DNA of 30,363 bases from a virus, in the IMG/VR virus record IMGVR_UViG_3300007770_000065, positions 1 to 30,363 of that record. One strand, given 5' to 3'. Below, piece by piece: positions 1,305 to 30,119 of this stretch. Position numbers and translations under genes: made by a program. Positions within the stretch are counted from its first letter, which is position 1, and every line of letters starts with the position of its first letter. The notes under the pieces were generated by a model, which saw only the letters and a list, made by a program, of their open reading frames with translations, had not been told where the DNA came from and did no database searches.

Positions 1305-1940
1305 TTACTTCAACTCCTTAATTTGATCACATACCCCATACTTCTTTGCCTCTGAGGCACTTAACCAAACATCATGCGCCGGGAGTAAAACCTCCCGAAC
1401 CTTCTTTTCCGACAAACCAGTACACTTGATGTAATGATCCACAATCATCTTCGATGTCAACTCAAACCCCTTACCCGCGGTAAGCAATTCATGCTCCTTG
1501 CCATACTTACCCCAAGAGTATTGATGGGAAAGGATTTGTGTATTCGGCGTCAAAACACGGTGCTTCTTCTCACCTGCCATAAAGATCATCAAAGCTGAAC
1601 TGGAAACCTCACCCAGCCCAATTGTATGGATCGGGATACCAGATCCTCTCATGGTATCAATAAGAGCAAAGGCACTCGACACGCACCCACCGCTCGAATT
1701 TATAATCAAAGTTAAATATTCTGGCTGAGATGGTGATAAATTATTTTTAAAGATCCACTCAATAATCGGCTTCACGGATTCATTTTTAATATCATCCATG
1801 ACCATCATAACACCGAGCTTGTCTAAAGAATCATCACCCCCTCCAAAAATTGAACCCAACACATCATCGGCAACTGATGCCTGTAAATTACTGCCACCTT
1901 CTACCAACTTCAAATCTCGATCATTATTGTTTTGACTCAT
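1305..1940 (-). CDS. clpP: ClpP-like serine protease
   Basis: ClpP-family self-compartmentalising peptidase subunit, 211 residues. The catalytic triad is visible: Ser114 in GEVSSSALMIFMAG, His139 in ILSHQYSWG and Asp190 in HDVWLSASEA, each aligning with E. coli ClpP motifs. The oxyanion strand INSSGG is at residues 81-85. I chose the ATG at 1940, not an in-frame upstream start at 1991, because 1940 overlaps the polymerase stop by four bases (ATGA) and the extra 17 residues lie inside gp43. The first ~40 residues replace the usual propeptide and lack homology I recognise. No ClpX/ClpA partner is seen, so it probably uses host ATPases or acts alone. ClpP-like genes occur in some T4-like marine phages. 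Confidence 0.9.
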   Translation of the reverse strand: MSQNNNDRDLKLVEGGSNLQASVADDVLGSIFGGGDDSLDKLGVMMVMDDIKNESVKPIIEWIFKNNLSPSQPEYLTLIINSSGGCVSSAFALIDTMRGSGIPIHTIGLGEVSSSALMIFMAGEKKHRVLTPNTQILSHQYSWGKYGKEHELLTAGKGFELTSKMIVDHYIKCTGLSEKKVREVLLPAHDVWLSASEAKKYGVCDQIKELK

Positions 1941-4537
1941 CCAAAAAACCTTTCTAGTGAACTGGTTGGTTTGGCTTTCCAACCAACACAAGCCAGCAGC
2001 ACTCCAATCGGGTCGAGAAACGACTTAATAAAATGTTTTTCATAATCAACAAAACCATCCAAACCAAACTCTTTGGGCAGATCGTTTTTAATAGAAATTA
2101 CAGATTCATGAATTAGATTTGGTGCCTTGAGATACAAAAACCTAATCTTATCATCATCAACAATCCTCTGATATTGTCTATCCAGATTATTCTTACCAAC
2201 CAACTTATTATAGATAATTGAACCCTTTACGTGAATCGGCGTACTCTTTATATAGGTGTCACCCTCTGTATACTTTTTGATGCCCCGAACGCCGCGCGGG
2301 AACGCAACATCTTCGGCAGGAAGAGAATAAAACTCTTGCCTGAACTCCTCAACAAAGGACTGCACATCACTCTCAGAACCATTCATAATAATCTTCAAGA
2401 CACTCTTAAACTTCTCCCGGCACACCTCGGGAGTAGAAGACTTGACTGCCTCGAGGCCCATAATTTTCAGCTTGGGTTCAATGTAACTAACTCCTTCACT
2501 ATTATAAACGTTAAGAACATATCGCTTCTTTGCTGTCCACAAACCCTTTGAAGCAATAATCTCCCTCTTCATCACCATCTTTTGAGCACACGCATTCATA
2601 TAATCCGCAAGCTCATCATAGCACTTGTCAATATAGGGCTCTATCTTTTCCGAACAAACCTTGTCAAGAAAATCCACCACTTTTTTTGTTTCATCTGACG
2701 CCACAGATCTTCCAAATGAACGAGTAACAAGTTTATCAAGACATAGATATATACTGTCAGTATCAGAAGCAACAACAAAATCCTCATCCGTTGTCTCCAA
2801 GAGTTTATTTAAATATTTATTAATTTTACTCTCGATCCAACGAATAGAAAGCTGACCCGCTCCAGTAATAGCTCGCGCAATACGAAGATCATAGAACCTG
2901 AAATATGGATTCCCACAACTGCCAAATAATGAATTGAGCAAAATTTTCATGGACATTTGAGAGTTATTGTACTTTGATATGTCGTTTTTCACTTGGTTCC
3001 GCATGGCTTGATGATCATAACCATCAGATTCGTTGTCAATCTTCTCCAAAAGCTTCTGACTTTCGATCATTTTCTTTTTAGCCACAATCCTATCCTTATA
3101 TTTCTGCTCCAAGATCTCAGGAAGAAACCCCTGTGAATCACGCTTGAAGAACGCGATGTTTGGAGTAACCGTGAGGTTATCTCGCTTCAACAGCGATGTG
3201 TCAAACTCCTTATTAACGAGTTTATCATAGTTGGAAATGGTATCCCAAGGACCGCGCTTCAAAGAATCAACAAGATCCTTGTTCACATTTTCCTCTGGAA
3301 CCAACTTTTCTGGCGAGATATTATACTGCATCATCAAATGAGGATACAGTGAGTTCAAATCAAAAGAAACAACCCAATTATGAATGCCCACCTGAGGTTC
3401 CTTGACATAGGCACCCTCAAACTGAACATTCTTGTCGGCATTCTTTCGCGGAGGAATCGCGATGTTCTTCTTGCGAAGATGGTGATAACAAATGCTATCC
3501 CACATACGCACCTGCGAAAACACATCACCCAAGTTAACCTTGGCTGAATACGCAAGAGCAACTGCCACCTCAATAAGCTTCATCTTGTCTTCAAGAAGCC
3601 CAACAAGTTCCACATCCCTTACATTATACTCAATAAACCGATGATAATCCCTCTTGTACAGCGTATGTAAACTTCCAAACTCAGAATACGACATCTTTCT
3701 CTCACCGAGTTCTACGTTCGCGATATAGTCAAGACGATAGCTTTCCCGATTGGTATAAGTAAACTTCTTATAAAGATCATAATAATCCAGAACAGCAATT
3801 CCGCTCAGCTCAACACTCACTTGCTCTTGACCAAAGTTAGAATGAAACTTGCGGACAGAAGCATACTTCCACGGAGAAAGTCTACGAGCAGTCTTTTGGT
3901 TATATAGACGACAAAGCCGATTGTAAAGATACGGAATATCGAATCCGTTTACATTCCAACCCGTGACAATATCGGGAAGGTACTGATTCCAAGTATCAAG
4001 GAAGCACTCAAGAAGTTCACGCTCATCCTCGCACGAAACATAAAGAATGCCACGCGATTTAAGAGTGTCTTCAATCTTACATCCCTCCGGTTCTCCGAAA
4101 CCAAAAACGTAAAAAGAATCGTTGAACTTTACTGCGATTGAAATGATCGGAGAAGCAGCACTTTCGACATGGGGGAATCCATCATCCGACGCAACCTCGA
4201 TATCAATATTGGCAATCACCAACTTGCTGATATCATATTCAATTTCATCGGGATACTCATCCCCAATGAACGCGAACGCAAAGTTATCATTCCCATAAAT
4301 TTTATAATTAGAAACGTCTTTGTGGTTTTCTATAAACTCCCGCGCCTCGACCAAACCATCAAACTGAATGGGCTTGACATTAATCCCGTCCAAGGTCTTG
4401 TACTTAGATTCCTTTTCGACCGGAACAAACAACGTAGGCGAATAATTTACCTTCTTCTGAAAGCGTTCGCCAATCTTCCCAACGCCGCGAAGAAAAACTT
4501 GGTTCCCCACAGCTCTCACATTAGTATAAAAACTCAT
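1937..4537 (-). CDS. 43: Family B DNA polymerase gp43
   Basis: Replicative DNA polymerase with proofreading exonuclease, 866 residues, similar in length to T4 gp43 (~900). Exo I is at 110-115 (Asp112, Glu114 in NIDIEVA), Exo II around Asp200 (WNVNGFDIPY), Exo III at YNVRDVE (304-310). Polymerase motif A is SFDLNSLYPH (Asp393), motif B is KILLNSLFGS (Lys530, Asn534), and motif C is ASDTDSIYL (Asp591, Asp593). All catalytic residues are present. The extreme C-terminus SSLERFFG looks like the clamp-binding peptide that docks T4-type polymerases on gp45. The start has GAGTAGG about 8 bases upstream. It follows the amidase and is coupled to the ClpP gene by a 4-base overlap; in T4 regA directly precedes gene 43, whereas here hsp20 and the amidase intervene. 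Confidence 0.97.
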   Translation of the reverse strand: MSFYTNVRAVGNQVFLRGVGKIGERFQKKVNYSPTLFVPVEKESKYKTLDGINVKPIQFDGLVEAREFIENHKDVSNYKIYGNDNFAFAFIGDEYPDEIEYDISKLVIANIDIEVASDDGFPHVESAASPIISIAVKFNDSFYVFGFGEPEGCKIEDTLKSRGILYVSCEDERELLECFLDTWNQYLPDIVTGWNVNGFDIPYLYNRLCRLYNQKTARRLSPWKYASVRKFHSNFGQEQVSVELSGIAVLDYYDLYKKFTYTNRESYRLDYIANVELGERKMSYSEFGSLHTLYKRDYHRFIEYNVRDVELVGLLEDKMKLIEVAVALAYSAKVNLGDVFSQVRMWDSICYHHLRKKNIAIPPRKNADKNVQFEGAYVKEPQVGIHNWVVSFDLNSLYPHLMMQYNISPEKLVPEENVNKDLVDSLKRGPWDTISNYDKLVNKEFDTSLLKRDNLTVTPNIAFFKRDSQGFLPEILEQKYKDRIVAKKKMIESQKLLEKIDNESDGYDHQAMRNQVKNDISKYNNSQMSMKILLNSLFGSCGNPYFRFYDLRIARAITGAGQLSIRWIESKINKYLNKLLETTDEDFVVASDTDSIYLCLDKLVTRSFGRSVASDETKKVVDFLDKVCSEKIEPYIDKCYDELADYMNACAQKMVMKREIIASKGLWTAKKRYVLNVYNSEGVSYIEPKLKIMGLEAVKSSTPEVCREKFKSVLKIIMNGSESDVQSFVEEFRQEFYSLPAEDVAFPRGVRGIKKYTEGDTYIKSTPIHVKGSIIYNKLVGKNNLDRQYQRIVDDDKIRFLYLKAPNLIHESVISIKNDLPKEFGLDGFVDYEKHFIKSFLDPIGVLLACVGWKAKPTSSLERFFG

Positions 4538-5210: not shown

Positions 5211-5675
5211 TTATCCATCCAAGAACTGCGGACCTTCCGCAGTTCCTCCATTAATATCAATCTTTCTCGGCTTCACCTTCTCAGGAATCTCATTGAGAAG
5301 ATTGATCGAAAGAAGACCATTCTCAAATGTTGCGTCAGTAACAACAATCGTGGGGCTCAATGTCCACGTTCGCTTAAAATTACGCTCGGCAATTCCCTGG
5401 TGGATGTGTGTTTCCTTTCCACTATGATCCTTATTAGACTCAACCGTGAGCCTATCGTCCTGCACCGTTACAGAAACCTCATCTTCATTAAACCCAGCAA
5501 TCGCAAGGTCAATCCGAAACTCGTTTTCGGTAACCCTCACAATATTATATGGAGGATAGGTTGCAGCCTGACCCGTTCCAACACTCGTTGAAAGCAGTCG
5601 ATCGAAGATTTGATCAAATCCCACAAGGAAAGGATCGCTCCGAAGCTCATTAAAAATACTCGGTATTCTGGTCAT
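5211..5675 (-). CDS. hsp20: Hsp20 / IbpA-like small heat-shock protein
   Basis: Alpha-crystallin-domain holdase chaperone of 154 residues that would bind unfolding proteins during infection. Class A (IbpA-like) marks are seen: YPPYNI at the domain start, GIAERNFKRTW, the A-x(n)-NGLLSINL strand and IPEKVKPRKIDI near the C-terminus. I chose the ATG at 5675 (MTRIPS), 36 bases inside the longest frame, because AGGAG lies 7-8 bases upstream. The gene has its own strong sigma70-like promoter (5744-5772) and a 5' leader with a long hairpin (5707-5739), and ends at a terminator, so it is an independent unit wedged between regA and gp43. Hsp20 genes are common in T4-like cyanophages. Confidence 0.95.
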   Translation of the reverse strand: MTRIPSIFNELRSDPFLVGFDQIFDRLLSTSVGTGQAATYPPYNIVRVTENEFRIDLAIAGFNEDEVSVTVQDDRLTVESNKDHSGKETHIHQGIAERNFKRTWTLSPTIVVTDATFENGLLSINLLNEIPEKVKPRKIDINGGTAEGPQFLDG

Positions 5676-5706
5676 ATTGTTTCTCCTTATTATAAGCAAG
5701 TTATAT

Positions 5707-5739
5707 TTCAAACAAACCCAAATTTGGCATTTGTTTGAA
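5707..5739 (-). promoter_or_regulatory. Leader hairpin of hsp20 (possible RNA thermometer or operator)
   Basis: A 33-base inverted repeat with arms TTCAAACAAA / TTTGTTTGAA (10 bp, perfect) around a second palindrome CCAAATTTGG. Given the promoter upstream, transcription should start at or just before it, placing the hairpin at the 5' end of the hsp20 mRNA, about 32 bases from the start codon. A/U-rich leader hairpins often control small heat-shock genes thermally, but this one does not clearly cover the Shine-Dalgarno sequence, so it may instead stabilise the mRNA or bind a repressor. Confidence 0.55.
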
Positions 5740-8000: not shown

Positions 8001-8951
8001 TTAATTATACTCCAATTCTTTCATCAGTTCAGTTAAACAAGCAACCATGTTCAATTCCAAGTCGGCTACAAAGGCAGACTTGTATTGATAATCCGCAAGC
8101 AGAATAACTGCCTGTGGGATGCTCTGTGGCTTGACATGACCATACAACCCGTCATAAATCAAACGAAAGATTCGAGACGGATCATCATCAAGATTATCCA
8201 CCACCCACTTGCGCATGTTCTTGAAGTTCTTTTCCTTCAAGTGCTGCACAAGATCCTTAATGGTCTGTTCCGTGATAGTCGTCAGAATTCCTGCGTCAAT
8301 CTCACCAGACACAGAGTATCGCTGCAACTCATTAATCACCCGACGGAAATCGGGAAAGTATTTGGTAATCAGTTCAACAAGAACCTTTTCATTATACTTA
8401 ATCGATTCCTTATCGAGAATCTCAATGACTCTCTTGAGCAAACCTGCCGCAAGCTGTGGGCGATCCTTCTTCGCAAACCGGAAATCAATAACACTACATC
8501 GACTATGGATCGGTTCGATGATACGATTCTTAAAATTACAAGTAAGGATGAATCCGCAGTTCTTAGAGAACTCTTCAATAAACCCGCGAAGTGCGGGTTG
8601 GGTAGATTGTGGATTAAGATAGTCAGCCTCATCGAGAATGACAATCTTCCGCTTGCCCGTGGAAGTAATAGAAACACCAGACGCAAAACTTCTCACGTCG
8701 TTGCGAAGCGTGTCAATGTTTCCGCTTTCACTTCCATTAATGATAATATACTCCACACCCAACTCCTCACAGAGAGCGCGGGCAACAGTAGTCTTACCCG
8801 TACCTGCGGTCCCTGAGAGAAGAAGGTTTGGAATATCACCATTCGCAACAAACTCAAGGAAAGTATCTTTCAGTCCTCTCGGAAGAATACAATCCTCAAT
8901 GGTTCTGGGACGATATAGTTGCGACCAAATAAAATCATCACGAAGTTTCAT
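8001..8951 (-). CDS. 44: Clamp-loader ATPase gp44
   Basis: AAA+ ATPase subunit of the T4-type clamp loader, which opens and loads the gp45 ring with gp62. 316 residues, close to T4 gp44 (319). Walker A is GTAGTGKT (47-54), Walker B VILDEAD (104-110), and the SRC motif with the trans-acting arginine is at 150-152. The N-terminus (WSQLYRPRTIEDC) is the usual clamp-loader start. It lies 18 bases after the ammonium transporter stop; in T4, gp45 would be its neighbour, but here a three-gene membrane cassette lies between them. Confidence 0.96.
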   Translation of the reverse strand: MKLRDDFIWSQLYRPRTIEDCILPRGLKDTFLEFVANGDIPNLLLSGTAGTGKTTVARALCEELGVEYIIINGSESGNIDTLRNDVRSFASGVSITSTGKRKIVILDEADYLNPQSTQPALRGFIEEFSKNCGFILTCNFKNRIIEPIHSRCSVIDFRFAKKDRPQLAAGLLKRVIEILDKESIKYNEKVLVELITKYFPDFRRVINELQRYSVSGEIDAGILTTITEQTIKDLVQHLKEKNFKNMRKWVVDNLDDDPSRIFRLIYDGLYGHVKPQSIPQAVILLADYQYKSAFVADLELNMVACLTELMKELEYN

Positions 8952-8969
8952 AATATAATTATTCCTCTT

Positions 8970-10184
8970 TTATATGTTAAACGCAGTAGCGGTTCCCGTA
9001 GAACCGTTGTATGCAGAACATCCATGTTCCACAAGGTCAAGCCCAATCTCTTCTTCAACTTCTTCTACACGAATACCAATCGTACTCTTTAGTATATAGA
9101 ATAAACCATAAGAAATCAAGCCAGAAAATACCAGATATAAAGATGTTCCCAATAGCTGAATAAAGAACGAATGTTCAGCAGAGAATAATCCGACTGCCAA
9201 TGTTCCCCATACACCACAGGTGAGATGAACAGAAACAGCGCCAACCGGATCGTCAATCTTCAATACCTGATCCAATAACATAATTGACACTACAACAAGA
9301 GATCCTCCAAGCATTCCAATTATAATAGAATCTAACACTCCAACAACATCTGCACCAGCAGTGATACTGACCAAGCCAGCAAGTATTCCATTTAATGCCA
9401 TACTCAAATCAGCTTTATTCGTAATGAACAAGGACGTTACAATACTCGCAAGGCTTCCTGCCGCAGCAGCCAGACACGTTGTAACTAGAACATAAGAAGT
9501 TAGCGCAGGGTCAGCGGAAAGAACAGAACCGCCATTAAACCCAAACCAACCCAACCAAAGCAAAAACGTACCTACTGTTGCCATCGGCAGATTACTCGCA
9601 AAGATTCCTCTCTCTTTTCCGATGCGGCTACCTAGAAGGTATGCGCCAACCAACGCTGCCATGCCACCGAACGCATGAACAATTGTAGAACCGGCAAAAT
9701 CATAGAAACCAAGAGTATCTAAGAATCCACCGCCCCACTTCCAGCTACCCGCAATTGGATAGGCAAAAGCAACGAAGGGTATACAAAATAGTATAAATGA
9801 CTTTAGTTTAATTCTCTCTGCAACGGCACCGGACACGATAGTCAAACACGTTGCCGCAAACAATGCCTGAAATAAAAAGTCTGTCCAATAAGTATATGAA
9901 CCATCGGCATACGAAATCTCAGAACCACTAGGACCGGGATTTAAACCGAAGCCAGCAAATCCCATAATTCCATTAAAATCGCCAGGATACATTAGCGAGA
10001 ATCCACAAGCCGCATAGGTAAGTATACCTGCACAGATAATGAATACATTTTTGAATAGAATGTTTACCGTATTCTTACTCTGAGTCATACCAGACTCAAG
10101 GGCAGCAAAGCCCAAATGCATTACAAATACTAATGCTGCTGCGAGCATCATCCACACGTTATTGACTGCAAATAATTCTTCCAT
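8970..10184 (-). CDS. amt: Ammonium transporter Amt (phage-borne)
   Basis: Inner-membrane Amt/MEP/Rh-family channel for ammonium uptake, 404 residues with about eleven hydrophobic helices. Functional residues of E. coli AmtB are kept: the pore gate around Phe109 and the WFGFN motif (213-217), Asp162 in DFAGSTIVH, and the twin histidines His170 and His320. It is full length, so probably active. The ATG at 10184 has a strong GGAGG seven bases upstream; an in-frame start at 10226 is less likely. No GlnK/P-II regulator gene is beside it, so the phage copy may escape or borrow host control. A TATAAATA late promoter and a large hairpin precede it. A host-derived auxiliary metabolic gene is the natural reading; the transport role is inferred from family. 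Confidence 0.95.
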   Translation of the reverse strand: MEELFAVNNVWMMLAAALVFVMHLGFAALESGMTQSKNTVNILFKNVFIICAGILTYAACGFSLMYPGDFNGIMGFAGFGLNPGPSGSEISYADGSYTYWTDFLFQALFAATCLTIVSGAVAERIKLKSFILFCIPFVAFAYPIAGSWKWGGGFLDTLGFYDFAGSTIVHAFGGMAALVGAYLLGSRIGKERGIFASNLPMATVGTFLLWLGWFGFNGGSVLSADPALTSYVLVTTCLAAAAGSLASIVTSLFITNKADLSMALNGILAGLVSITAGADVVGVLDSIIIGMLGGSLVVVSIMLLDQVLKIDDPVGAVSVHLTCGVWGTLAVGLFSAEHSFFIQLLGTSLYLVFSGLISYGLFYILKSTIGIRVEEVEEEIGLDLVEHGCSAYNGSTGTATAFNI

Positions 10185-10288
10185 TTTAAGCACCTCCTGC
10201 TTATTCTTTGTACATACGACACGCAATTACGCCGTATAGCTACGTTTAAATTAACAGGATAATGTATAAGCAAGTCGTATGCCAACCT

Positions 10289-10344
10289 GAACCAGAACGC
10301 CCCCCTAGAGAAAGATATCTCTAGAAGGGCGTTTGGGGGGGTTC
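10289..10344 (-). promoter_or_regulatory. Large GC-rich hairpin in the amt leader
   Basis: Arms AACGCCC/GGGCGTT enclose an inner stem TAGAGA/TCTCTA, and a C-run and a G-run offer competing pairings (GAACCCCCC against GGGGGGCGTTC). No T-run follows on either strand, so it is not a canonical terminator. It begins about 25 bases after the TATAAATA box, hence near the 5' end of the late amt transcript. It could stabilise the mRNA, attenuate it, or end the upstream transcript. Confidence 0.6.
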
Positions 10345-10368
10345 AGCGTCTAACATACTTACAATAAC

Positions 10369-10376
10369 TATTTATA
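10369..10376 (-). promoter_or_regulatory. T4-type late promoter upstream of amt
   Basis: Exact TATAAATA on the minus strand, the T4 late promoter -10 element read by RNA polymerase with gp55 and the gp45 clamp. It sits in the 237-base gap between the coiled-coil gene and amt. A TTGTCA lies 16 bases upstream, so a sigma70 reading (TTGTCA-N16-TATAAA) is also possible. Confidence 0.7.
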
Positions 10377-10421
10377 CCGCACTTTCTCTTTTTGACAAAA
10401 CTTTTTAAACTATTTTGATGT

Positions 10422-10751
10422 TTATTGTGCGGATTGCTGTTTCTCGTCGTACTCCTCCACTATACTCGAAATCTTCTTTCTATAACTCTCACCCCAAAGC
10501 TCTTGTCTAAGCTTTTCCTCATTTTGTAATTGAAGCTGCCCCTCTGCCAACTTCTCTAAAATTCTTTCATGATCATGTATCTCTTCTTTCTGACTATGTA
10601 GCTCTGGAGGAGAAGGCATCTCTGAAACTATTAGGTGAGTGGCATGAGCAGTAAAAAACCACCACCCCACAAACCCAACCGCAGTAACAACAGAAACACC
10701 GGCTGCCACTTTATTTAAGTCGAAATCAAATTCTACTCTATGCTTTTTCAT
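10422..10751 (-). CDS. Membrane-anchored coiled-coil protein
   Basis: 109 residues. A short charged N-terminus is followed by one membrane helix (about residues 15-35, KVAAGVSVVTAVGFVGWWFF) and a long, highly charged region (50-109) rich in E, K, Q and L with heptad character. The topology predicts a cytoplasmic N-terminus and a periplasmic coiled coil. I do not recognise the family; a link between inner and outer membranes or a spanin-like role would fit the shape. It is transcribed after the porin gene, 32 bases from it with AAGGAG before the ATG, and before amt, which suggests joint function with these membrane proteins, but this is inference. Confidence 0.75.
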   Translation of the reverse strand: MKKHRVEFDFDLNKVAAGVSVVTAVGFVGWWFFTAHATHLIVSEMPSPPELHSQKEEIHDHERILEKLAEGQLQLQNEEKLRQELWGESYRKKISSIVEEYDEKQQSAQ

Positions 10752-10783
10752 AGAATTAAACTCCTTATTTTCGACACCTTTCC

Positions 10784-11800
10784 TTAAAAAGCGAACTGGA
10801 ATCCAATAAATCCACCATCGACATCTCCACCTGTAACTGACTTAGTGTGAAAATAATTAGCCGACAGCTTTGTCTGAGCAAGATCCGACACTACAATATT
10901 TGCTCCAGCGTCAAACCGCTCTTCTGTTCCTGTTACCCCACCATCATATTCAAACCTCTGATACCGAAAAAACGGCTGGGGCTGAAGTGCAAAGGGAACC
11001 GCGGGAATCGTTCCGTCAAGAAGATATGACGCTCCAGCAGTAAAACCGTTGCCTGCGTTCAGACCAACACCAGGGATATAAACCCGATTATCCAGATCAT
11101 AATGATTAAATACAGCATCTACATCAAGTAGACCATAGGGAATCGCGCGGCTATATGTCGTATCAACACTCACCCCAAGGTAACCATCCTGAGCCTGAAC
11201 GGCACTACCAATAGATAGACCCTTGACGGCAGCAATTCCGAAATCAACACGACCGGCAAATAGAACCTCATCATCGTTTCCGTTGAATAGACCAAGGTTA
11301 TAATCAACAGAAACCAGACCCGCTACATCAACATCACCAGAAACAGATGCTCCATCACGACGGCCATATCCATCAAGGGAAGACCACTTGGCAACAAGAC
11401 TGGCACCTTGCCACTCTGTCCATCCATAAGTGTCCAGCATCGCGTTTCGCCCGGCAGGGATCAAGAGCCGACCCACCCTGAAGTTCGCATAATCCTTGTG
11501 TAAAGGCGCATCAAAATACGCATCTAAAATATCCAGACTATTGCCATCTGTCTGAACAGAAACGCGCGCATCAAAAACCGACTTACTAAAGGTTGCTCCA
11601 AGGCGAGCATTATCTAAATTAAACTCACTCACGTCACCAGTCGCGAAGAGTGCTGCCGCTCGTGCCTTTGCGTCAAATTCCACGCCAACCCCATTGTCAG
11701 TAGTAGTGCCTTCTTCATGACCGTCTGCGAAAGAAGGATTCACGCCGATGAACATAAAACAAACAAGTGCCAAAACAAAAAACCTAATAAATCCATTCAT
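10784..11800 (-). CDS. Outer-membrane porin (porin O/P-like beta-barrel)
   Basis: 338 residues. A signal peptide (about residues 1-25, ending NPSFA before DGHEEG) is followed by alternating amphipathic strands and a C-terminal strand ending FIGFQFAF, the terminal phenylalanine used by BamA for barrel insertion. GRLLIPAGR and NLGLFNGN resemble segments of phosphate-selective porins (porin O/P family), but selectivity cannot be judged by eye. The start at ATG 11800 has AAGGAG eight bases upstream. A TATAAATA late promoter one base after the gp45 stop drives it. A phage gene for an outer-membrane channel is unusual; uptake of nutrients, altered phage adsorption or superinfection exclusion are all possible. 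Confidence 0.88.
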   Translation of the reverse strand: MNGFIRFFVLALVCFMFIGVNPSFADGHEEGTTTDNGVGVEFDAKARAAALFATGDVSEFNLDNARLGATFSKSVFDARVSVQTDGNSLDILDAYFDAPLHKDYANFRVGRLLIPAGRNAMLDTYGWTEWQGASLVAKWSSLDGYGRRDGASVSGDVDVAGLVSVDYNLGLFNGNDDEVLFAGRVDFGIAAVKGLSIGSAVQAQDGYLGVSVDTTYSRAIPYGLLDVDAVFNHYDLDNRVYIPGVGLNAGNGFTAGASYLLDGTIPAVPFALQPQPFFRYQRFEYDGGVTGTEERFDAGANIVVSDLAQTKLSANYFHTKSVTGGDVDGGFIGFQFAF

Positions 11801-11817
11801 AATTATTCTCCTTATAT

Positions 11818-11846
11818 CCAAAAACAAACTCCAGAACATCTGGAGT
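11818..11846 (-). terminator. Terminator-like hairpin in the porin leader
   Basis: Perfect 9-bp stem AACTCCAGA/TCTGGAGTT with a three-base loop, then TTGTTTTTGG on the minus strand. This would end transcripts coming from gp45. Yet it lies downstream of the late promoter at 11872-11879, so late transcripts must cross it, or it acts as a 5' leader hairpin. Confidence 0.7.
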
Positions 11847-11871
11847 TATAATCAGAGGACAAAGTTTCATT

Positions 11872-11879
11872 TATTTATA
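11872..11879 (-). promoter_or_regulatory. T4-type late promoter for porin
   Basis: Exact TATAAATA on the minus strand, starting one base after the gp45 stop and 72 bases before the porin ATG. Together with the copy before amt it puts the membrane cassette under late control. Confidence 0.75.
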
Positions 11880-12551
11880 CTACTTTGTAATTGTAGAATG
11901 TGACGATTCGCTACAGATCCAATACTCCAAGTCAATTTCCTTATGAGCAAAATGACCAATTCCGTGTCCAGAAATCTTTACATCATAGTCCCCAGGGAAT
12001 AGCTTGAGATTATCCACAATAAACGTGGCACAGAAATCGCTGATTACGTCATCTTCTACCTTCAAATCAATATCAAAACTGTTTGAAGAAACCTTCGTCT
12101 TATCTGAAACTGTGGCAACTAGCGGGCTTGTCTGAAAACTCACATGAGGAAGACTCAAAACACCCGCAGCCTTTCGGATTGCCTTGAGATTATCATGTGT
12201 AAACTCAAACACAAGATCCGCACTCGGCAAAACAATGTGATTCTGTGGGGGTGTCTTGATCAGCGTAGGATCAGTATATCCATACCGAATCTTCTGCTTG
12301 CCAGAACTCACGTCCACATATTCATCTTCAAACTCAAACACAGGATCTTCCAGAAGACTGATGGCACCCAAAAACTGATTTAGTTCATATATACCAACAT
12401 CCTTCGGGAAAACTTCGTCAACCGTTGCCTTGGCAAGAATACTGTTACCAGCAGAGATCGTAAGAATATCCGAACCCGGATTAATTACAATCGACCCCTG
12501 AATTGTCGAAAAGTTGTTAAGAATAGAAATTGTATCTTCACTGATCTTCAT
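11880..12551 (-). CDS. 45: Sliding clamp gp45
   Basis: Trimeric DNA clamp that tethers gp43 and, in T4, activates late transcription. 223 residues, near T4 gp45 (228). Starts MKISEDTISILNNFSTIQGS and keeps the clamp pattern (ILTISAGNSILAKATV, ELNQFLGAISLL, IDLEYWI). Identification rests on this pattern plus its place upstream of gp44 and gp62. I use the ATG at 12551 with AAGGTG upstream, not the in-frame start at 12584; it overlaps the preceding gene by 14 bases. The presence of a clamp fits the late promoters seen here, since T4-type late transcription needs it. Confidence 0.93.
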   Translation of the reverse strand: MKISEDTISILNNFSTIQGSIVINPGSDILTISAGNSILAKATVDEVFPKDVGIYELNQFLGAISLLEDPVFEFEDEYVDVSSGKQKIRYGYTDPTLIKTPPQNHIVLPSADLVFEFTHDNLKAIRKAAGVLSLPHVSFQTSPLVATVSDKTKVSSNSFDIDLKVEDDVISDFCATFIVDNLKLFPGDYDVKISGHGIGHFAHKEIDLEYWICSESSHSTITK

Positions 12552-12837
12552 TATTATCACCTTCTTCATTATTATTAAGTTCACTGAAATGCATCAACAA
12601 TAGAATATAATGCATTGCTTTCAATAGATCAAGTTTATTCTTACCTTTTTTTCTCCCATAACGAGCGATGTACTTCATCGCATTTCCTTGACAAAAATGC
12701 TCCGCAACACCGATTGAATTTAACAAATCTTGTATTTGAGTACCATTATCATCAACACCAACATAATGTTGACTGTATGTTTTTTCAATGTACTCTTCTA
12801 CTTCCTTCAGATTATTTATTTCATCATATTTCCACAT
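12538..12837 (-). CDS. DUF3310-like protein
   Basis: 99 residues. The central pattern QHYVGVD, then FCQGNAMKYIARYGRKKGKN and LDLLKAMHYILLL matches DUF3310 proteins of phages, sometimes annotated as nucleotide kinase-like, with the conserved GNA-KY-R-RK core. The exact role is unknown. The C-terminus is an acidic, Asn-rich tail, part of which overlaps gp45. It starts two bases after the glycosyltransferase stop with only a weak ribosome site, so coupled translation is likely. Confidence 0.82.
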   Translation of the reverse strand: MWKYDEINNLKEVEEYIEKTYSQHYVGVDDNGTQIQDLLNSIGVAEHFCQGNAMKYIARYGRKKGKNKLDLLKAMHYILLLMHFSELNNNEEGDNNEDQ

Positions 12838-16702: not shown

Positions 16703-17152
16703 TTAACTACCCGATCGTCGGGCTCTCTTCTTCTTACGATTGTTGAACAAAAGAAGCAAAGCAACCAGTCCACCAAACAAACCCCCAAAGGGTTCTGGCA
16801 AATACGTGACCGTGATCGGAACCTCAGGACCAGTCAACCCATTCCAGCCATGCCACTGCGCAAGGTATGGAGTACAAGAAGAATCTACCCCGGTAAAATC
16901 AGCACAGTGATGTACTGTTTTTGCGTCGGGGGCAAGAGCATAAAAACGACTAGAAGTTACTCCATTGATTGGATTATAATAACATGGATAATCTGGAATC
17001 GGATTTGGGCACTCAAACCAAACCGAAAGTTCCCACCAAGGGTTGGTCGGGTCTATGGAAGGCGCAATCCAGGGACCAAACGGTTCTCCCGATTCATCAA
17101 CTGCGCGATAAGGAGAATAATTCGATTGAATTGGTTTCCAACAAACAATCAC
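16703..17152 (-). CDS. Protein with PEP-CTERM-like sorting tail, GTG start
   Basis: 149 residues. The C-terminus has the tripartite exosortase signal: LPEP (118-121), a hydrophobic helix (about 122-136) and a basic run RKKKRARR (139-146). The body is rich in Trp, Pro, Tyr and Cys (five Cys), like an extracytoplasmic domain, with SSRFYALAPDAK loosely recalling a fibronectin III strand. No N-terminal signal peptide is visible. The start GTG overlaps the stop of the upstream 77-residue gene (GTGA), so translation is coupled. PEP-CTERM proteins are known from Gram-negative biofilm bacteria and cyanobacteria. No exosortase gene is seen, so any processing would rely on the host. Alternative: a simple tail-anchored envelope protein. 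Confidence 0.75.
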   Translation of the reverse strand: MIVCWKPIQSNYSPYRAVDESGEPFGPWIAPSIDPTNPWWELSVWFECPNPIPDYPCYYNPINGVTSSRFYALAPDAKTVHHCADFTGVDSSCTPYLAQWHGWNGLTGPEVPITVTYLPEPFGGLFGGLVALLLLFNNRKKKRARRSGS

Positions 17153-17382
17153 TCAATGCCCCTTCTTCTCTTTTTCAGTAAAACCAACATCACAACCAAC
17201 CCGGTATATAAGCCCACAGAGCTTGAAAACTCTGGAGCATGTTTGGGGACGGTGCTGAATGTCAGGTCAGAGGGTGGCAATAGAGTAGGGGGTTCAATCT
17301 GTTGTGCCATGGAAACGTCCGCTGCCAGTGCCACAAACAAAAATACCCACACGATCAGATTTTTATTAAACTTCATACTCAT
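17149..17382 (-). CDS. Small secreted protein with PEP-CTERM-like tail
   Basis: 77 residues. N-terminal signal peptide (about 1-26, hydrophobic VWVFLFVALA then VSMAQ), a Pro-rich 25-residue linker, and a C-terminal APEF (49-52), hydrophobic helix and KKRRR. This copies in miniature the exosortase-sorted layout and resembles the tail of the next gene, with which it is coupled. A two-helix holin with both ends in the cytoplasm would have the same shape, so lysis is an alternative. The start is one of two ATGs (17382 or 17376); GAGG lies 14 bases upstream of the first. Confidence 0.7.
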   Translation of the reverse strand: MSMKFNKNLIVWVFLFVALAADVSMAQQIEPPTLLPPSDLTFSTVPKHAPEFSSSVGLYTGLVVMLVLLKKRRRGIE

Positions 17383-20477: not shown

Positions 20478-21050
20478 TTAATATTCACTCCCGAGATTTG
20501 CGTTGCGCAAATCCGCGCCGCTCAGGTTCGCGAAGTCCAGGTTCGCGTTGGACAGATCCGCGTTGCTCAGGTTCGCGTTGGTCAGGTCCGCGCCGCTCAG
20601 GTCCGCGTCGGACAGGTCCGCGTTGGTCAGGTTTGCGTTGATCAGCCCCGCGTTGGACAGGTTCGCTCTATACAACACCACGTTGACCAGCCCCGCGCTT
20701 AACAGGAATACGTTGGACAGGTTCGCTTGGTGCATGTGTGCCCAGGTCAGGTCCGCGGCGATCATGTACGCGTTGGTCAGATCCGCGTTGCTCAGGTTCG
20801 CGTAGGTCAGGTCCGCGTAGGACAGGTCCGCGATGTGCAGCCACGCGCCGCTCAGGTCCGCGTTGGTCAGGTTCGCGTTGGTCAGGTTCGCGTTGGATAG
20901 GTCCGCGTCGGACAGGTCCGCGTCAGTCAGGTCTGATCCACTCAGGTAGGCTCCTCTAAGATTCGCTTGCACTCCGCCCCCTTCGCCGCGCAGCCACTTC
21001 TGGTGAGGCTCGTACCAATCATATGTCTTACACAGTTCTTTCTCAGTCAT
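20478..21050 (-). CDS. Pentapeptide-repeat protein
   Basis: 190 residues. After a 30-residue head (MTEKELCKTYDWYEPHQKWL) come about 30 tandem A(D/N)LxN-type pentapeptides, predicting a right-handed beta-helix. Some members mimic DNA and protect gyrase; others have no known role. The repeats are nearly identical at DNA level (units like GCGGACCTG) and much richer in G+C than the AT-rich flanks, suggesting recent expansion or transfer. AGGAG lies upstream of the ATG, although spaced about 11 bases. A phage role in modulating host topoisomerase is speculation. Confidence 0.93.
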   Translation of the reverse strand: MTEKELCKTYDWYEPHQKWLRGEGGGVQANLRGAYLSGSDLTDADLSDADLSNANLTNANLTNADLSGAWLHIADLSYADLTYANLSNADLTNAYMIAADLTWAHMHQANLSNVFLLSAGLVNVVLYRANLSNAGLINANLTNADLSDADLSGADLTNANLSNADLSNANLDFANLSGADLRNANLGSEY

Positions 21051-29624: not shown

Positions 29625-30119
29625 TTATTCCCCTCTCGTAATAGACAAAATTCGATGAATCTGTCGTTCAATAATTTCTTTTCGGTTGGGCCAATAGATG
29701 TATTCTTGCTCCAATGACTCTGGCTTGATGAAGTTGACGAGCAAAGGAAGGATCAACTTTTCCAGCTCCTTCATTTTACTCGTGGTTGTTTCTTCGACCC
29801 GCCTCTGAATCTCACTCTCTGTTGCGCCTGTATCATTGACCCTCTCCAGCAACGTGTCCAACTTTCCTTCTATGTTCAATTCATCAAAATCCAAAAGTGC
29901 CTTGATGCCCGAAAGTGTACTTTGAAGATCATCCACTTTCCCTTCCAACGCACCAATACCCTCAACCTGTGTCGAAATGCTTTCTACTGCCTGGGCTGTC
30001 GCAGACACCGTGCTTTCTGTATCCGTATCAGTTGTCGGCTTGGCATCAACAAAGGACATGCCAAGATCCATGTCATAATCATCTAACTGAAACCCCTTTA
30101 GAAAATCTGGATCAGCCAT
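29625..30119 (-). CDS. Coiled-coil protein of T4-like marine phages
   Basis: 164 residues. The head MADPDFLKGFQLDDYDMDLG is followed by a long heptad region (about 40-110: VESISTQVEGIGALEGKVDD) and a C-terminal MKELEKLILPLLVNF plus YIYWPNRKEIIERQI. I recall the last pattern (Y-x-WPNR) from conserved structural-region proteins of T4-like cyanophages, without a named function. The start has GAGGGGA upstream and overlaps the HNH gene by eight bases. Confidence 0.75.
   Translation of the reverse strand: MADPDFLKGFQLDDYDMDLGMSFVDAKPTTDTDTESTVSATAQAVESISTQVEGIGALEGKVDDLQSTLSGIKALLDFDELNIEGKLDTLLERVNDTGATESEIQRRVEETTTSKMKELEKLILPLLVNFIKPESLEQEYIYWPNRKEIIERQIHRILSITRGE

Follow-up and report, generated by a model that had tools for sequence, protein, structure and literature searches.

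A urea-operon-type porin and a separately acquired ammonium channel may feed nitrogen to cells infected by a T4-like phage

What are an ammonium channel, a coiled-coil protein and an outer-membrane porin doing between two replication genes of a T4-like phage? The locus lies in the 30,363-base viral record IMGVR_UViG_3300007770_000065, which we analysed over its whole length (positions 1 to 30,363; hereafter the window) and whose minus strand carries a T4-type replication block: gp45, gp44, gp62, regA, gp43 and most or all of a uvsX-like gene. Between gp45 and gp44 stand, in order of transcription, genes for a porin, a 109-aa protein (hereafter the coil) and an ammonium channel (Amt), all on the minus strand (Table 1). 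A sequence-only reading of the locus had described the three genes as a cassette that carries nitrogen across both host membranes, and as a set new to phages. The layout that it gave is sound, with all three open reading frames present on the minus strand between flanks assigned to PHROG 223 and PHROG 168. Its start codons, TTG 10226 for Amt and 11839 for the porin, probably give way to downstream ATGs with strong ribosome-binding sites: the most likely start of Amt is the ATG at 10184 (404 aa), because a strong AGGAGG lies upstream, and the most likely start of the porin is the ATG at 11800 (338 aa), because AAGGAG lies upstream. Elsewhere in the window we noted by eye frames for a ClpP-like protease (1305–1991, minus strand) and a pentapeptide-repeat protein (20478–21050, minus strand), together with two small adjacent frames (16703–17152 and 17149–17382, minus strand) whose products end in a hydrophobic stretch and a basic tail that resemble cell-surface sorting signals.

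Table 1 Features of the gp45–gp44 interval and its boundaries, in order of transcription.
Feature	Position	Strand	Basis
gp45 sliding clamp, left insert boundary	11880..12566	(-)	PHROG 223, E 2.5e-64
TATAAATA promoter-like site right after gp45	11872..11879	(-)	exact match
Short GC hairpin and T-rich stretch, terminator-like, in the gp45–porin gap	11829..11845	(-)	CTCCAGATGTTCTGGAG TTTGTTTTTGG
Predicted outer-membrane porin, 338 aa	10784..11800	(-)	AF2 model, PDB porin matches, profile and neighbourhood tests
Coil: single-pass protein of 109 aa, coiled coil at its C terminus	10422..10751	(-)	sequence
TATAAATA from the ancestral porin–gp44 spacer, now in the coil–Amt gap	10369..10376	(-)	spacers of relatives
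Conserved hairpin after the second TATAAATA	10287..10350	(-)	covariation
Amt ammonium channel, 404 aa	8970..10184	(-)	PF00909, key residues, tree
gp44 clamp loader, right insert boundary	8001..8951	(-)	PHROG 168, E 3.7e-123

The Amt is full length, matching PF00909 over profile positions 1–399 of 399 (353.8 bits) and exceeding the TIGR00836 cut-off (382.5 versus 343.3 bits). In an alignment with 1xqe, AmtB residues F107, W148, D160, H168, F215, S219 and H318 are all conserved, a set that covers its Phe gate, its recruitment site (Trp/Asp) and its twin-His pair; the earlier statement that the functional residues are intact is thus borne out at seven of seven key positions. No PII gene stands beside the window Amt, and Rfam gave no glutamine-riboswitch leader before it, the best match being a chance-level one to rli38. 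Amt was found together with this type of porin in a single phage genome only. A chimeric assembly of this sole contig is possible, although the GC content and codon use of Amt resemble those of the phage.

Searches with the single porin sequence returned no relatives from the viral, cellular, phage or PDB collections, so an alignment of sister-phage porins, which are 35–80% identical to one another, was needed. The protein has a signal peptide, 16 predicted strands and a C-terminal Phe. From the single sequence AF2 was useless (pLDDT 31.5); with six phage sequences it gave a 16-strand porin barrel at moderate confidence (pLDDT 61.5, pTM 0.59), and a Foldseek search of the PDB matched this model to DcaP, OmpT/OmpU, OprO and others (E ~1e-7, TM ~0.5–0.6). 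Signal peptide, barrel model and terminal Phe together uphold the earlier description of a signal-peptide beta-barrel ending in Phe. Family models gave no match to the window porin, and a Pfam match to Porin_O_P (PF07396) is absent from it and from its close relatives. Two assignments were accordingly rejected: a phosphate porin of the Porin_O_P type, the background loci of that family (below) also lacking urt linkage, and kinship with BBP2/OmpL or TorF, for which Pfam likewise gave no match (PF07642 included).

The coil has a single transmembrane segment, at its N terminus, and a coiled coil of charged character, which confirms its earlier description as a single-pass coiled-coil protein. Searches found no relatives of it, returning only a nine-residue match and a weak coiled-coil match. 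We considered a spanin-like role for it; a basic search of the window for lipoboxes, which divergent forms may escape, found no gene for a partner outer-membrane lipoprotein. The gene is missing from sister phages, and the coil would be a separate accessory gene.

Did the three genes arrive together? Close relatives were found through gp44 and gp45 searches in IMG/VR, and their gp44 identity to the window is 93% (L162, L244), 88% (L260), 84% (L163–L165) or 81% (L166). In eight related viral contigs, four of which are near-copies, the porin stands directly before gp44 without Amt or coil; gp45 is visible too in seven of the eight, and one contig begins inside the porin. In more distant T4-like phages gp45 adjoins gp44, and the gap is mostly empty or holds unrelated genes. 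Every relative with a readable spacer has TATAAATA and then a hairpin before gp44, the same pair of elements that in the window lies between coil and Amt. Because the ancestral pair directly precedes gp44 in relatives, the window is most simply read as the product of two separate insertions, the coil upstream of the TATAAATA-hairpin and Amt between the hairpin and gp44. The three genes do not travel together between gp45 and gp44, the relatives having scattered single genes. The notion of a three-gene cassette therefore fails on the eight relatives whose porin has neither of the other two genes beside it and on an insertion anatomy that points to separate arrivals; the different contexts and neighbours of other viral amt loci also speak against it. 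Amt was absent from all nine porin-bearing viral records, the longest of which reach 107 kb.

Other genomic sites hold the porin as well. In L248 it lies beside an endonuclease-like gene, and TATAAATA and a hairpin of similar kind come after it; in L372 and L374 it lies near recombination genes (gp46/gp47 by eye). These three copies, all without Amt, indicate that the gene has changed its position in phage genomes.

The two TATAAATA sites had been read as late promoters. Both matches are exact, but their number does not exceed chance (two in the window against 1.16 expected, with at least two in 31 of 100 shuffles), and we discarded the count as late-promoter evidence. Conserved position is better evidence than count and argues for a function of some kind: the gp45-proximal site has the same position in L162, L244 and L166 and is missing in L163 and L165. 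The sites resemble T4 late promoters, and one of them was ancestrally gp44's own. The terminator-like hairpin between gp45 and the porin has a comparable counterpart in L162, L244, L163 and L166.

The hairpin after the second TATAAATA is a real conserved structure. Across seven sequences it has 18 pairs, with 96% of cells paired; six pairs have changed on both sides, and its covariation score was reached by none of 500 shuffles. Rfam held no match for it, and a leader, a processing site or a small RNA are candidate roles. Matches to the TATAAATA-CTGAACCCCC pattern outside the clade mostly fail to fold into the hairpin and were set aside as chance. A different RNA element, a ROSE_3 RNA thermometer recognized by Rfam (5670–5736, minus strand; 47.3 bits, cut-off 43), stands directly upstream of a phage hsp20 gene, with sub-threshold matches in the corresponding position of L162 and L244 (34 bits, E ~0.001).

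Where did the porin come from? We used a phage-only porin profile (A2) and a larger one that includes urt-linked sequences (A4); because A4 contains such sequences, the linkage test was scored with A2, and the Myxococcota porin loci, found with A4, were then only rescored with A2. Across 395 genomes from the phylum of a Pseudomonadota MAG, A2 made two strong matches, both adjoining urtA (the UrtA beside the porin matches TIGR03407 at 464 bits in a copy cut at the locus end). Across 198 genomes from the phylum of a Nitrospiraceae genome, four of four strong matches adjoin urtA. The strongest cellular A2 matches in the two phyla have E values of 1e-19 to 1e-27. UrtA lies at most ~1.5 kb away in nine of the ten fetched cellular loci that score at least 55 bits with A2 (the exception is L311) and near none of 30 Porin_O_P background loci from the second phylum; three of the nine (L272, L273 and L280) belong to one bacterial family, and related genomes are not independent.

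The urt-linked cellular relatives match Porin_O_P at 23.4–23.7 bits, and in the alignment the phage porin is only 24–25% identical to urt-linked porins. In the tree, the phage porins form a clade (100/100) that is sister to a urt-linked clade of 17 urt-linked sequences and five others, at a modest join of 80/77, with other porin relatives outside both. This supports a reading in which the phage porin would be descended from, or close kin of, bacterial urt-operon porins, and it supports nitrogen uptake, of urea as well as ammonium, as its putative role; urea as a substrate is a prediction from gene neighbourhood only. A characterised urea/amide porin is FmdC of Methylophilus methylotrophus (1997, as cited in PMC5877670 and PMC7078480). 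The porins of urt operons (urtABCDE), adjoining urtA, are the closest cellular kin of the phage porin, whereas the phage copy stands without urt genes: the nine porin-bearing viral records, which are fragments, contain no UrtA-type protein (PF13433; urea ABC-transporter binding protein). In the literature searched, we found no urea-operon-type porin in T4-like phages.

The Amt has a history of its own. A scan of viral contigs gave 98 Amt relatives, of which 80 were kept. The closest, 55–60% identical to the window Amt, come from contigs with the PII-amt-BBP2 porin arrangement of Gazitua et al. 2020 (PMC8115048), and two more viral Amt clusters occur in further viral contigs, among which T4-like ones are numerous. 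The window Amt falls outside these three viral clusters and joins a gene from a Polyangiaceae MAG (Myxococcota; support 99/93). Given this placement, it is a further, independent capture; the cellular Amts in the tree were taken from a pattern-limited scan, so the donor is not fixed. Many Amt-bearing viral contigs (for example L029–L035, L041, L045–L046 and L048–L052) encode, shortly upstream of amt, homologs (~29–42% identity) of a 164-aa protein that the window carries at 29625–30119 on its minus strand.

Pairs of Amt and porin in phages are not new, having been published by Gazitua et al. in 2020 (PMC8115048), and the earlier suggestion of novelty is not supported. A porin or barrel adjoins amt at 34 viral loci out of 80 (25 BBP2, 9 Gcw_chp); for the 80 cellular loci the corresponding numbers are 37 and 9. 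With such neighbours at viral and cellular loci alike, Amt–porin pairing is a recurrent theme of bacteria and viruses. The published glnK-amtB-ompL cluster, from presumed Bacteroidetes phages (PMC8115048), likewise has Amt beside a porin, with ammonium uptake inferred. It differs in having PII first and a BBP2/OmpL-like porin and in being inherited as a set from Flavobacteriales, whereas the window has no adjacent PII, a porin of another family and an Amt that was acquired separately. In contigs L051, L054, L056, L058–L062 and L064 a Gcw_chp (TorF-like) barrel directly follows Amt; here the Amt is of another cluster (42–44% identity), the barrel has ~200 aa and the genome position is different. 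An Ostreococcus tauri virus also has a host-derived ammonium transporter, whose transport was shown experimentally (Monier et al. 2017, as cited in PMC9083009), but this is a eukaryotic algal virus, and the window Amt is known from sequence.

We consider it rather probable that the phage supplies the infected cell with nitrogen through two genes of host type that it acquired separately. The Amt residues and the porin's kinship make nitrogen entry through both membranes a sensible interpretation; as the work of a cassette, it is not supported. The porin would be the older gene, resident between gp45 and gp44 in a T4-like clade and located elsewhere in further viral contigs. Amt would have been added later in the window lineage, a short way downstream and following the TATAAATA-hairpin leader already there, and for that reason is likely transcribed with gp44. 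Made in infection, the porin would let more of the small nitrogen solutes (urea, ammonium) cross the outer membrane, ammonium would then enter through Amt in the inner membrane, and the nitrogen gained would be used for phage DNA and protein synthesis; the expression, substrate and cooperation of the two are what we infer. A need for nitrogen uptake is plausible because infected cells raise such genes themselves, host amt in pelagiphage infection (PMC12753301) and amt1 with several porins in dark cyanophage infection (PMC5082946). More tentatively, with doubt slightly outweighing confidence, we propose that T4-like phages took a urea-operon porin as a mobile stand-alone gene and that one lineage added an unrelated Amt, giving a two-membrane pair for reduced nitrogen that would converge on the Amt–porin operons of bacteria and phages.

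The porin might instead be a general or other-solute channel (for phosphate or amino acids, for example) and Amt a chance neighbour, each acting alone. This is unlikely, though it keeps a real minority share of our belief: the porin is older than Amt and persists where Amt is missing, its superfamily (Porin_O_P, ExtI) has porins for other solutes (PMC5877670) and the gp45–gp44 spacer takes unrelated genes in other T4-like phages, but nine of the ten nearest cellular relatives are in urea operons, against none of 30 in the background, and two other porin families likewise pair repeatedly with Amt in bacterial and phage genomes. Quite improbable is a role at the cell surface, with uptake irrelevant, in which the porin serves as a decoy or in superinfection exclusion by mimicking or blocking a receptor porin of the host. 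Such a role would suit the fast divergence of the porin among sister phages (35–80% identity) and the use of outer-membrane proteins as receptors by T4-like phages, for example OmpW (PMC10132071); yet the invariant positions, even in comparison with cellular urt-linked porins, include residues of the predicted constriction region (110–150 of the window porin: GR, P, W, K, R, G), and the porin's kin are urea-operon porins, not known receptor porins. We give very little credence to Amt as a recent passenger, neither made nor used, with only the promoter-hairpin-gp44 unit mattering here: Amt does occur in a single phage genome, absent from close relatives, behind a promoter-like element that was ancestrally gp44's, but its frame is open, its ribosome-binding site is strong and its functional residues are all kept along a long branch (0.59), which argues for selection for function.

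The locus suggests that in infection viruses may ease a bottleneck at entry through the outer membrane, and not only at the inner-membrane transporter. It also suggests that phages acquire nitrogen-uptake genes repeatedly, in at least four separate viral Amt clusters with three adjoining porin families.
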